DNA of 64,000 nt from Laburnicola sp. R22_1 (lineage: Eukaryota; Ascomycota; Dothideomycetes; Pleosporales; Didymosphaeriaceae). This document shows positions 14,798 through 61,567 of the stretch, piece after piece (positions within the stretch are counted from its first letter, which is position 1; every line of letters begins with the position of its first letter). The stretch is taken from assembly GCA_014281115.1 (NCBI GenBank), contig JACONQ010000001.1, positions 3,906,001 to 3,970,000 of the forward strand. The letters are read 5' to 3'. The notes under the pieces are model-generated. The model did no database searches and had not been told where the DNA came from. It saw nothing but the letters and a program-made list of their open reading frames with translations. Made by a program: the position numbers and the translations under genes.

Positions 14798-17049
14798 ATG
14801 GCTGCGGGCGAATTCAGCCGCTTGCTTGTTTCGCACTGGCGTGAGCTGCACGAGAAGCTTCGGTCGCAGGACGAGGACATTGTCGTTGATGGGCGCAGCC
14901 TTAGTATCGCTGCTGTCGTCGCATGCGCCAGGTACGCAAACATGTGATTGATATTGCTGCAGTGCGCTGATACGACTGCATCTCCAGGTACGGACAAGAT
15001 GTAGCGATTAACGAGGATACGGCCGAGATGATACGGAGGGAGACGGAAAAGAAGTACGGCGAGCTGCGCGAAGGCGAAACCATGTCAGGTATTATATTTT
15101 CCTCGATGATCGTTTGTTCGTGAAACCGTGTCTGCAGTCGCTGACCGGAGAAAGGTTCCTATAGGCCGCTAAGCTGGGGCAGCTCTGCTCCTGCTATGCG
15201 AGTCTCCGCTATTGAACACTGGCAGCGAGATATGATGCGCGATTGTCATTTCGGCGTATTGTCTGGGGAAACAGACTTCGACATATCCCAAGCCACTCGC
15301 ACTTTCTCTTCGTCCATACCTCTTAACGACCTGGTGGAAGGAACCTCCATGCCGGAATCTTGGGTCCGAGCCCAATTACTGATTCGAGCAAACATGTTAG
15401 CCTATCCAACCGCTGGGATACGGCCTGTCCTACTGGAAAAGCTCGCTCAACTACTCAACTTTGATATTGTTCCACGAATGCCATTGCGGGCATCTATATC
15501 CGGCGTTGGTGACGCTGGCCCGCAATCGTATGTGGGAAGCGTGCTAGCTGGTAAACCGGGCGTCCAGGCCTGGATAGGTGATCGGATTCAAGGCGGTCGC
15601 AGACTAGTTCCCGCTGATGAAGCACTGAGCTTTGCTGAAATCGAACCGATGGAGGTGCGTGCAAAGGAGGGCTTGGCTCTATTTGTCGGGACACCAACAT
15701 CAGCAGGTATCGCCTCGCTAGCACTGCACGAGTCAATATGTCTTGCCGCGACTTCCCAGGTACTGACAGCCATGGCAGCGGAGGCACTATGCACTTCAGA
15801 CATGTGTTTTCATCCGTTGCTTTCAGAACTACGTCCGCACCCAGGGCAGATGGAGTGCGCGACGAACATGCGGTCTTTCGTGCAAGGCTCGAAACTGATT
15901 GTATGGAACGCAGCATCGGATGAATTCATGGCACGATCAGACAAATATGCTATCAGGACTGCACCACAATGGATCGGTCCTTGTCTTGAAGACCTCCAGC
16001 TTGCGTTTTCCCAAGTCTCGATCGAGATCAATTCCGCAACCGATACACCGCTGATAGATCCATCAGGCAAGATGCTCCATGGTGGGAACTTCCAGGGGAA
16101 GTCCCTCGCGTCAGCCATGGAGAAAACACGCCAAGCTTGTCAAAGTCTCGGACAGATTCTCTTCGCACAATGCACCGAGCTCATCAACCCAGGCACAAAC
16201 AAAGGTCTTGCACCCAACCTCGTCGTCGATGAACCCAGCCAATCTGGCCTTTTCAAAGGCATCGACATCCTCGTAGCCTCCCTCCAATCCGAGCTCGGCT
16301 TTCTAGCCAACCCAGTCAGCACACACGTGCAATTCGCAGAAATGGGCTACCAAGCCATCAACTCACTCTCCCTGATATCCGGCCGCTACACCCTCACAGC
16401 TATCGACGTCCTCACCCAACTAGCAGCCGCCCACCTAGTTGCTCTCTGCCAAGCGCTCGACCTCCGAGCCCTCCATATGCAATTCCTCTACGCGCTCGCT
16501 CCAAAATTCAAGTTCCTCACGCGCCGCTGCATGAGCGATTGCATGGAGCCGGCCACACCTTCCAGCGAAAATCCCAGCGCGGATATAGCCTACGATCTGT
16601 GGCTCACGCTCTCAGAGCGCATGAATACCACCACGCACCTTGACTCCCGCGCCCGCTTCTGCTCCGCCCTCGATTACTTACAAACTCTCTTCCTGCGCTC
16701 CCTCCCCACAAGCACGCACTCTCTCGAAGCCGTCCAGCAATGGAACGCAGACTGCGTCGAAGAAGCATGCGCCACATACGCCGCTGTGCGCACACGCTAC
16801 CTCGCTAACCCAGACGCGATGCCCATCTTGGGAAACGCCAGCAAGACGTGTTATCTCTTTCTGAGGCGGGAGTTGGAGATTCCGTTTGCGGGGCAGGAGT
16901 ATTTTAGGGCGGCGGAGCGGGATGATGGGACGAGGTTGGGGAGTCGGATCAAGTATCGGACGATGGGGAGTATGGTTAGTGCGGTGTATGAGAGTATGCG
17001 GAATGGGGCGTTGTATGCGGAGGTGGTGGAGTGTTTTGAGAAGGTTTGA
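14798..17049 (+). CDS. PAL-family protein lacking the MIO triad
   Basis: Exons 14798-14931, 14988-15088 and 15155-17049 give 709 residues, normal for fungal PAL. Family signatures are clear: RVSAIEHWQRDMM and HFGVLSGE, KYAIRTAPQWIGP, and EINSATDTPLID followed by HGGNFQG. PAL and histidine ammonia-lyase normally make the MIO electrophile from Ala-Ser-Gly inside ISASGDLSPLSY. Here the aligned stretch is ISGVGDAGPQSY, so the triad is Gly195-Val196-Gly197. The NGT asparagine is Val256 (LFVGTP), and the tyrosine-loop motif YGVTTGFGGSA is replaced, although a tyrosine (Tyr81) remains. Classic ammonia-lyase chemistry is therefore unlikely. The ORF is otherwise open, which argues for a kept, changed function. 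The exon 3 acceptor (GAAAG) is a weak site; the stronger CAG at 15137 would lead to a stop. Confidence 0.85.
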
Positions 17050-17327
17050 TGGGAGCTCTGCTTGTAATGGTGAGAGGATTTCGGGATTATATTTTGGCAT
17101 GATTGCGTGGATGCGTGTGGTGCGTGCATTAGACTTAGCAACTTTGATTAGTGAGGATATGTCTTGGACCTCTCAAAGTTTAGGATACGTGCTGAGTAGC
17201 TCAGCTGGATCATGTGCTCAAATACAACCATAGCAGTGCAGATATCCTTAGGATAGCCTATAATGTGGCCGAAGAAGCAATTTCAATTCATCTCATCACC
17301 GTATGCCATCTACTCCTCCTCTAGCAT
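17050..17327. other. Short intergenic spacer before Tc1 element
   Basis: The 3' region of the PAL-like gene up to the TA target site of the Tc1/mariner element. No other feature seen. Confidence 0.4.
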
Positions 17328-17329
17328 TA

Positions 17330-18646
17330 CAGTGCCAAGCCAAAAGTCTGTTCCCCCAACACGCGCGTACACCAACACCAACACCCTATTTTCAACACTA
17401 CATTACTCCACCAATATGAGCTCTTTTGGTGTAGAAATTTCAGGAAATCGTCGCCGCAATGCCGAATTATCTGTCCAGCAACGGTATTTAATTATCGCGA
17501 AGTGTGAGGCGGGCGCGTCATCGCGGGAGTTCGCTGAGGAGTTTAACTGTACGCGTCGCTGCATCAACAAAACACTTCAGAGATATGGAGAACAACACCA
17601 CAATCAATCGCGGCCTCGATCAGGGCGTCCCCAGGCGCTTAATACACATGACAAGCGTGTACTCTATCGAGAGGCACGAAAAAACCCGAGGATCGAATAC
17701 CCAGCCCTCCTCCGCGAGGCCTCCCTCCGCCGCATCTCTCGAACGACTGCATATCGCGCATTGAAGGCAGAGAGCCTGACCAACTTCCGGGCAGCGCGGA
17801 AGCCCAAGATCACTCGCGCGGTGGCCCAGGAGAGGCGTCAATTCGAACGGGAATATCGCAATTGGGATTGGCGCGGACAGCCCTTCCGGTTCTCAGATGA
17901 GTGCTCTATTCAAAGACGCTCCGGCGGCACATCTACATGGGTTTTTCGCCTCCCACACAAGAAATGGAGACATAAGATGATCGAGGAGACAGTTATATCA
18001 AGATCTCGCGCGGCAATGGTGTGGGCGAGTATCTGGCTTGATTGGAGAGGGCGGGTTTGGCGGAGTCCCTTAGTGATCATGCCCAGGGACCCAGCAGCTC
18101 GTCGCAAAGGATACAGCGCATGGAGTTATATTAAAGCTCTACGCGAAGGACTCCTCTGTAATTATCACGCAGGAGATATCTATATGCACGACAACGCGCC
18201 CATCCACAGGGCGCGACAGTCGCTCGATTTTTTGGCGGAACACGGCATACAACCGATCGAGTGGCCGCGTTATTCCCCCGACATCAACCCATCGAACATC
18301 TCTGGTGGTCCCTTAAGAGAGAACTCCATAAGCGTTACCCCAATATGGGCGACCTTGGCGACGGCGACGAGGACTTTGAGACCTTCTGCGCGGCGTTGAA
18401 AGATTGCTGGCGTAGGATCCCTGATTCGCTGATTCGCAAGCTTATACTTAGTATGCCGCGCCGCCTACTTGCTCTCCGGCGTGCGCGCGGGTATCAAACA
18501 AAATATTGATCAAATAATTATCTCTATATCAATTATCAACTCTCCGGGAGCGATATTGGGGGTGCCGGAGCGCTCTGCGCGACGGGGTGGTGATGATGGC
18601 GGACCTCGCTTACCCCTGCGGGGAACAGACTTTTGGCTTAGTACTG
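17330..18646 (+). mobile_element. Tc1/mariner element with TA target duplication
   Basis: A complete element of 1317 bp. Its ends form a terminal inverted repeat of about 27 bp (17330-17356 and 18620-18646) that differs at two positions, both transitions. It is flanked by TA on both sides (17328-17329 and 18647-18648), the hallmark duplication of Tc1/mariner integration. It contains one transposase gene on the plus strand, broken by a frameshift. Confidence 0.9.
17416..18509 (+). pseudogene. Tc1/mariner transposase, frameshifted
   Basis: The reading frame opens at MSSFGVEISGNRRR. An N-terminal helix-turn-helix (about residues 20-70) is followed by a second DNA-binding segment and a DDE_3 catalytic domain. 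The first aspartate is in FSDECS and the second in MHDNAPIHRA. The third acidic residue belongs to the PIEHLWW motif, but a one-base loss at about 18288-18292, straight after YSPDINP, moves that motif to another frame, which continues to 18509. All other coding sequence is open, so this copy looks recently inactivated. Confidence 0.88.
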
Positions 18647-59776: not shown

Positions 59777-61567
59777 AGCTAGCGTATACAGATACGAGTC
59801 ACATAGGGTTTCGAGTCACCCCACCAAAACGCGACACCTGCACAAAACACGCGGTTTCTCTCTACAACGCCTTTATAATTGCCATTGAGTACACATAGAT
59901 TCAAGCGTTGCAGCTGCTATAACTACTGCAGCCCTTTCTGAAGCGCTTGCTACAGTAGATCTACGTTGCTGAGCTGCTAAAGCCTCAGCTGCGCGCATAG
60001 CCTCTCTAATAGTCTCTACTTCTGCAAAGCGTTGATTTGGGTCTATCTGAATGCGCTTTCGACGACGCTGAGAGCTAGCAGTTTGTAGATGATGCTCAAG
60101 GCGTCTTTTCTCTGATTCAAGTCCTGCAGCTCTAGCATTTGCAGCTGCTAGCGCCTTACCTGCTTTCTGTAGGAGTAGCCGGGTCCTACGACCTAGATTC
60201 TCGACGCTCTGGACGTCGCGCTGCGCTATATAGAGATCGCGAGGGCCTTGAGGGGTCGAGAGGAAGCTCTGAGGCTGCTGCTGAGGCTGCTGCTGATGCG
60301 TAGGCGTAGTAGGCCTCTGGGAGACTTGCGACGAGCTGAGCACGTGATTGATGTTGAATGGGCAGATACCAGCAGCCTGCCAGCCAGCTCGAATCACACG
60401 CTCTGTGAAGCCTTCCTCCCTAGCTTGATAGTAGCAGGCAATAAAGCGCTCCTTCTTAACAGGTGTGGCGTCGTCGAGCGATGCGAGCTCCTGGATCTGG
60501 CGTCGGTAACTAGACTTGATTACAGAGAATGGAGCAAGATCTAGAGGCTGTAGGACGTGCGACGAATGCGCAGGTAGATAGAGAAGCTCAATTCGATGCT
60601 GTTTGCAAAGCCATAGGAAGTCTATGTCAATATGGCTGCCGTGACCGTCGAGGATAAGGAGGCGGTACTGGCCATCACCTACAGCCGTCTCGGGGATAAA
60701 AATGCGCTGTAACCACTCAACACCTATCGCGTTTGACGTCCATCCATTCTCTGAGGTTGTATACAGCCAGCTGGGTACGTAGGACGATGGGAACCAGGTA
60801 GTTTGTAGGCTCTGGCCTTTGAAGATGACCGCGCAGCGTAGTTTCCGCCCTGTTGCTGATACGCACTCAATTATAGAGACCCACTCGCGATTCTCTGGTG
60901 ATCGAATATAAGCCTTTTTCTTTCGACTACTAGAGAGTACTCTGGTGTTTGTACATACTCCTAGAGCGACGCCAGTCTCATCCATATTGTATGTATTCTC
61001 CGCCTGTATATTGAACCGCTGTCGAGTCTGCTCGTAGCGCTCTAGGAACGCGCGTAACTGCTCTGGAGTCGCTGCATTAGCTCTCTGAGCCTCGAGTTTT
61101 CTACCAATGACTGAGGCGACGCGTGGCTGTCGCTTGATAAAGTGGGATAGCCAGAGCTTGCTAATAGGCTGATTATCGCCGTTCATACGTAGGATTCAAT
61201 TGGCCATTTCTCGAGCGCGAGCGTGTGAGGGAGGGCAGGCGCGTGCGTCTTCTTCGAGGATCCAGTCTACTAGGAAGTCCTCCTGTAGAGGAGTCAATCG
61301 CTGTTGGTGTTGATGGCTGGTACGGCTATCGGTTGCGCCTCGTATACGTGCAGAGAGAGTAGGTGCAGGAATGCCATACGCCTTAGCTGCAGCCCGCTGG
61401 CTATTATAAATGCCTGCATTGTAATCAGCAATAGCTGATTGTATAGCTACCTCACGGGCGTCCATATTGATGAGCGTTGTGGAGAGATATCGCGTGTTTT
61501 GTGCAGGTGTCGCGTTTTGGTGGGGTGACTCGAAACCCTATGTGACTCGTATCTGTATACGCTAGCT
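59777..61567 (-). mobile_element. pogo-like element, copy B (nested)
   Basis: A complete element of 1791 bp with perfect 77-bp inverted repeats (59777-59853 and 61491-61567) and TA on both sides (59775-59776 and 61568-61569). It lies inside the transposase gene of the older element in the opposite direction. It is the best-preserved copy in the window. Confidence 0.95.
59873..61465 (-). pseudogene. pogo-like transposase, copy B, one nonsense codon
   Basis: About 530 residues, open except for a single TGA at 61196-61198 (CGA in copy A). The order is Psq HTH (residues ~8-45), Tc5/CENP-B domain across the stop (LTPLQEDFLVDWILEEDA ... FIKRQPRVASVIGRK), DDE_1 catalytic core with aspartates in NMDETG, LILDGHGSH and QPLDLAPF, then a Gln/Pro linker and a C-terminal coiled coil. 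The stop is one transition away from arginine. The copy could have been active until very recently, or could be mobilised by a relative's transposase. Confidence 0.9.

Follow-up and report, generated by a model that had tools for sequence, protein, structure and literature searches.

In the fungus Laburnicola sp. R22_1, a 64,000-nucleotide stretch of contig JACONQ010000001.1 (positions 3,906,001 to 3,970,000, forward strand; here referred to as the window) contains a gene for a relative of phenylalanine ammonia-lyase (PAL). PALs are textbook enzymes that make their own cofactor, 4-methylideneimidazole-5-one (MIO), from their own backbone. The fungus carries in this gene an intact, evolutionarily kept PAL relative whose catalytic center has been dismantled piecemeal and whose role is very probably other than the elimination of ammonia from amino acids. 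In the literature searched, most subscription journals being outside its reach, we found no published account of a MIO-less fungal PAL. Databases label many proteins of the clade described below “phenylalanine ammonia-lyase,” and the case cautions that fold and length alone are insufficient to name a PAL.

Gene structure and active site of the window protein

The gene (14798 to 17049, + strand) has three exons and encodes a 709-amino-acid protein, according to a splice model fitted by hand to three predicted orthologous proteins, from Paraconiothyrium brasiliense (P0003, 708 amino acids), Bimuria novae-zelandiae (P0005, 709 amino acids), and Paraphaeosphaeria minitans (P0006, 708 amino acids), whose frame and both splice junctions it matches. 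All of its parts lie on the + strand: exon 1 (14798..14931) opens with the start codon at 14798, exon 2 spans 14988..15088, and exon 3 (15155..17049) ends with the stop codon; both intron 1 (14932..14987, 56 bases) and intron 2 (15089..15154, 66 bases) are of the GT..AG type. The introns are fungal in character, as are the nearest named relatives of the sequence. Exon 3 has no stops in its own frame, compared with 14 to 24 in the other five frames. Over most of its length it matches Pfam PF00221, the aromatic amino acid lyase superfamily profile (E value, 2.8e-108; 363 bits against a curated cutoff of 27.3), and Rhodosporidium toruloides PAL (RtPAL) heads its 39 sequence matches in the PDB. 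The PAL/histidine ammonia-lyase fold was assigned on a model of P0003, which is 80% identical to the window protein, rather than on a model of the window protein itself; the predicted structure (predicted template modeling score, 0.87) has RtPAL as its best PDB match. By fold and Pfam profile, the window protein is a member of the PAL family.

Membership does not extend to the enzyme itself. The exon 3 part scores 446.3 bits against NCBIfam TIGR01226, the PAL equivalog (cutoff, 519.15 bits), and the full-length members of its clade that were scored also fall below the cutoff (P0003, 441.0; P0014, 512.2; P0017, 474.8; P0019, 478.9; P0021, 453.9); P0024, from a canonical sister group, reaches 569.5 and exceeds it. 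Judged from its sequence, the window protein is not a PAL in the strict sense, because it is without the MIO triad, lid tyrosine, and NGT asparagine and scores below the equivalog cutoff.

The active site was compared in an alignment with 108 canonical homologues, every one of which carries the triad Ala, Ser, and Gly, the NGT asparagine, and Q348, Y351, R354, F400, K456, E484, N487, and Q488 (these numbers, and N384 below, we take to be those of PcPAL). As a sequence-only reading of this DNA had proposed, Gly195-Val196-Gly197 (15502..15510) stands in for the MIO-forming Ala-Ser-Gly, and the NGT asparagine is replaced by Val256 (15685..15687). That reading was also right that the tyrosine loop is rewritten: where the Ala-Ser-Gly (ASG) sisters have the lid YGINTGFGGSANVRT, the window protein has SGSYRPLSWGSSAPAMR (residues 78 to 94, 15085..15201, split by intron 2). 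Its claim that a tyrosine stays in register did not stand, however. Ser78 is found where the catalytic tyrosine belongs, and Tyr68 (15055..15057) lies upstream of the lid, in a segment, YGELREGE, that aligns with YGKIEEGQ (within VYGKIEEGQ) of the ASG sisters; in those sisters, the catalytic LYGINTGFGGSA follows ten residues farther on.

Three further changes had escaped that reading: Ser340 (15937..15939) replaces the RQDRY glutamine (Q348), Thr376 (16045..16047) the TDNP asparagine (N384), and Tyr477 (16348..16350) the GNQ asparagine (N487), which is lost in all 26 rows of the clade. Kept are Tyr343 (15946..15948; Y351), Arg346 (15955..15957), which corresponds to the carboxylate-binding arginine of PAL (R354) and is present in 26/26 clade rows, Glu474 (16339..16341; E484), and Gln478 (16351..16353; Q488), and likewise Phe391 and Lys446. 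The signatures NSATDTPLID, HGGNFQG, and KYAIRTAPQWIGP are present in the open coding sequence, as had been noted. On this alignment, the loss of the active site is real and more extensive than first described.

With no serine in the triad to dehydrate, MIO formation would be impossible, leaving the protein no electrophile for ammonia elimination; we infer that the cofactor cannot form. In a bacterial PAL (RxPAL), exchange of the triad serine for alanine (S153A) is described as abolishing MIO and practically all activity (PMC3903478), and a second report describes the lid tyrosine as indispensable, with mutants to Ala or Phe inactive (PMC9002059). Because such mutants of its relatives lose activity, the window protein is almost surely not a MIO enzyme.

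A clade of altered homologues and the order of loss

A tree of 59 rows groups the window protein and 25 homologues in one clade (support, 100/99), and the same clade is recovered with the same support (100/99) in a tree built without the active-site columns. The adjoining group, P0022 to P0025 (Lojkania, Aaosphaeria, and two Phaeosphaeriaceae), comprises the canonical ASG sisters. Within the clade, 12 rows have Gly-Val-Gly (GVG) at the triad, two GSG, three ASG, and one each GLG, GAG, AAG, GIG, and GFG, and four have no letters there. Homologues with GVG come from seven named species, which we take to be Pleosporales: Paraconiothyrium brasiliense, Bimuria novae-zelandiae, Paraphaeosphaeria minitans, Byssothecium circinans, Massarina eburnea, Periconia digitata, and P. 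macrospinosa. The sequence-only reading had supposed that homologues with an intact ASG might expose the triad as a sequencing error; ASG is indeed intact in the sister clade, yet a sequencing or assembly error is rejected because GVG recurs in these seven species.

The other losses are also shared. The NGT asparagine is gone from 22 of the 23 clade rows with letters at that column, and the catalytic lid tyrosine is missing at its column in 13 of 14 such MIO-less rows, the fourteenth (P0021) having a tyrosine there with the remainder of the loop gone. The lid pattern TG[FYVL]G[GA] occurs in 0/25 MIO-less rows versus 69/112 canonical rows, counts to be read with the many rows that are unspliced or N-terminally short; the lid column aligns poorly even among canonical rows, many of them unspliced (YGxxTG in 30/112). 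Retained across the clade are the arginine and the phenylalanine (26/26 each), Gln488 (25/26), and Glu484, Lys456, and Tyr351 (24/26 each). In the window's own ten-row subclade, the triad serine has become Val, Leu, or Ile, the NGT asparagine Val, Ile, or Met, and the GNQ asparagine Tyr or Phe.

Mapped on the tree, the losses amount to one change at the GNQ asparagine, two at the NGT asparagine, and two or more at the triad. Forcing the non-ASG rows together was rejected by the approximately unbiased test (p-AU, 1.95e-5), for a group that was named after the first tree had been seen and that takes in four rows with no letters at the triad. Two proteins, those of Corynespora (P0014) and Massariosphaeria (P0019), still spell ASG with both the lid and the NGT asparagine gone. 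A metagenome fragment that does not cover the lid region, P0020, retains ASG and NGT, with Glu484 replaced by Ala and Asn487 by Thr. From these rows, with ASG kept and other parts of the site lost, and from the changes on the tree, it therefore appears that loss of the triad came later than that of other parts of the site and took place in parallel, as would be expected had MIO catalysis already ceased to matter. One well-supported tree thereby holds a natural series, from intact PAL (P0022 to P0025) through ASG without the lid or NGT asparagine (P0014 and P0019) to GVG, which opens to direct testing both the order of steps by which a complex active site is lost and what selection then keeps.

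Several observations concern other rows. P0008 and P0012, the two clade members with GSG triads, keep the serine though the NGT asparagine is lost (Ile and Thr), and any MIO formation there is putative. A profile search with 20 clade members revealed no additional member among the best 120 of 1,385 matches; of the four proteins new in it (P0134 to P0137), P0134 and P0136 have ASG and P0135 contains ASGDL. Outside the clade, every row with letters at the triad has ASG in one comparison; among the 112 canonical rows of another, a single row departs from this: P0137, a protein from a metagenome-assembled genome of Circinaria calcarea, has ASE in an otherwise canonical PAL stretch, which could be an error or an altered triad. 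P0121 and P0135 (Botryotinia/Botrytis; approximately 1,230 amino acids) combine, in a single predicted protein, a PAL domain with a fungal transcription factor domain (PF11951, and in P0121 also PF00172), representing either a fusion or a gene-model error.

Constraint and competing explanations

We judged constraint by a column test, in which invariant columns are those at least 97% uniform in canonical homologues (n = 156); P0020 was excluded from both groups in the column-loss, catalytic-column, and constraint comparisons. Mostly changed in the MIO-less rows are 24 of the 156 invariant columns, and the remaining 132 are mostly kept. The changes fall on 10 of the 18 listed catalytic columns compared with 14 of the 138 other invariant columns (p = 2.3e-5), or, without the lid, on 8/16 compared with 11/133 (p = 1.1e-4). 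Between the window protein and its nearest orthologue, P0001, differences occur at 2/132 kept invariant columns versus 73/462 variable columns; within Massarina/Periconia, the corresponding changes are 13/132 versus 182/462. By these column counts, constraint is genuine, though less tight than in the ASG sister PALs. The sequence-only reading, that PAL fold and length are kept, that MIO cannot form, and that the role has changed rather than decayed, is supported by the clade of full-length orthologues, the concentration of losses in the active site, and this looser, continuing constraint.

We consider it probable that the protein is a maintained pseudoenzyme with a binding or scaffolding role, dead for MIO chemistry, in which the fold and carboxylate-binding residues are kept; the role itself is a prediction. 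The GNQ asparagine, and probably the lid, would have been the first to go, in a common ancestor, and the triad, once freed, would have undergone two or more changes. In the ten-row subclade, the cofactor site seems to have been refilled with mostly hydrophobic side chains and resembles a repacked core. With Arg346, Tyr343, Glu474, Gln478, and Lys446 kept, the pocket could still accommodate a carboxylate (an amino acid or cinnamate, for example), and the most likely product is a putative PAL-like oligomer that binds a putative ligand or partner in a regulatory or scaffolding role. Several points weigh against this interpretation. Measured from the common node, the subclade is about 1.7 times as distant as the ASG sisters (0.757 versus 0.447), and 26/132 kept invariant columns vary among its ten rows, compared with 3/132 among the four sister rows. 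Per-column variability in the subclade correlates only weakly with that in the canonical set (Spearman 0.24, 545 columns). The catalytic columns used in the loss comparison are those that we presume to be catalytic. Finally, the kept fold and Arg, Glu, and Gln could also serve an enzyme.

The last point leads to the main rival, that the fold was kept for some other elimination, addition, or isomerization that needs no electrophilic cofactor, which we regard as possible and distinctly less probable. A MIO-less precedent in the family is ergothionase, which releases trimethylamine, and the wider aspartase/fumarase fold offers another. Ergothionase, however, retains the lid tyrosine (VYGLNRGVG) that the window's clade has lost, and among the 39 PDB sequence matches of the exon 3 protein its structure (PDB 6s7j) ranks last (E value, 1.1e-13). 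No new polar residue shared clade-wide occupies the old site: all 13 newly conserved columns lie outside the listed catalytic positions, and the window's subclade has mostly hydrophobic residues where the site was emptied. The middle triad residue is not constant across the clade. That the clade is a MIO-free enzyme branch new to fungal PALs, its catalysis re-founded stepwise in the old pocket of a working PAL, is something we put forward as unlikely; with similarly low confidence, the Corynespora and Massariosphaeria proteins, which have ASG without the lid and NGT asparagine, would under such a scheme be surviving intermediates.

The faster evolution of the subclade, its looser invariant columns, the row-to-row differences in the triad, and the parallel triad losses would also suit a gene decaying under relaxed selection after the loss of its job and still open by chance. 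We hold decay to be improbable, given open full-length proteins in ten named clade species (688 to 722 amino acids), the stop-free exon 3, changes that avoid the canonical-invariant columns in both comparisons above, and losses clustered at catalytic columns rather than spread. Repeat-induced point mutation left no sign, with indices in the gene of 0.58 and 1.39. A last idea, that Gly-Val-Gly cyclizes by itself into an imidazolone like that of green fluorescent protein (GFP) in place of MIO, draws on the triad's last glycine and the following aspartate, kept in 22/22 clade rows with letters, and on the PAL-like predicted fold. We know of no precedent in the PAL family for a GFP-like ring, which counts against it, as does the variable middle residue; moreover, the carboxyl-pocket residues said to promote MIO formation (PMC9002059) include the NGT asparagine, which is lost here. 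We give this cyclization very little credence.

Genomic setting and comparison with known systems

The source genome (63.9 Mb in 26 contigs) has three ASG-type PAL loci elsewhere: near-identical twins, L007 and L008, lying toward opposite ends of contig C4, approximately 35 to 40 kb in, and L009. Read from DNA across introns, the lid tyrosine is kept in L007 and L009, and the frame of L008 is broken at the lid, where a G run is one base shorter in L008 (C4:31500-38500) than in L007 (C4:2632500-2639500). Beside each twin lie a transposase-like open frame and a long open stretch of a 189-bp tandem repeat (11 copies with 92% matches in L007). On the tree, all three loci fall far from the window gene, and its origin as a recent duplicate of an active PAL is rejected. 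No ASG copy of the window subfamily was found in the named clade species among the best 120 of 2,911 and 6,930 matches, and for this reason the window gene looks like the sole subfamily copy.

Around the gene are 38 long open stretches, of which 20 were scanned with Pfam and 13 matched, to histone deacetylase, RING proteins, two transposases, trehalase, LIM (just under the cutoff), LCCL, a PDR-type ABC transporter, and AFG1 ATPase; no biosynthetic cluster is evident among the 20 scanned. One transposase, of the Tc1/mariner type, lies directly 3′ of the gene (17257 to 18509, +), its frame broken and continuing in another from approximately 18300. The other (59876 to 61195, −) is a DDE_1 transposase, presumably pogo-type, with an open frame of 440 amino acids.

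Among known systems, the fumarase/adenylosuccinate lyase fold has other catalytic loops and shows 8 to 11% identity in structural alignments with the P0003 model. Phenylalanine and tyrosine aminomutases (PDB 4c6g and 2ohy) are known as MIO enzymes (PMC3903478), unlike the window protein, which is without the triad. Ergothionase is a relative said to be without MIO (PMC13405746). The Treponema denticola enzyme (PDB 6s7j) has the same fold and Gly-Glu-Gly for ASG, anchored on the next aspartate; it reads IGEGD where PAL has ISASGD, a triad loop one residue shorter, and the window protein has GVG. Ergothionase has approximately 500 amino acids and a lid tyrosine, whereas the window protein has 709 and Ser78 at the lid.

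A search of plasmids with the window protein (tblastn) returned 851 records, all at <60% identity, which were not used. As a separate observation, a gene on Rhizobium leguminosarum plasmid pRL31b5 (413 to 1918 of locus L011) lies beside hutC and is annotated as histidine ammonia-lyase. Its best PDB match is ergothionase 6s7j, and it shows GSIGAADL in place of the ASGDL of MIO enzymes of its type; it may also be MIO-less.

Fungal PAL (RtPAL, PDB 1y2m and 1t6j; sisters P0022 to P0025) shares with the window protein its Pfam family, length, and predicted fold, and RtPAL matches the P0003 model with a Foldseek E value of 1.3e-42 and a template modeling score of 0.84 by query length. Common to fungal PAL and the clade are the 132 of 156 family-invariant columns that are mostly kept, along with the carboxylate arginine, Glu484, Gln488, and Phe400. 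Unlike fungal PAL, the window protein is without ASG, the NGT asparagine, the lid tyrosine, and the GNQ asparagine and falls below the TIGR01226 cutoff.
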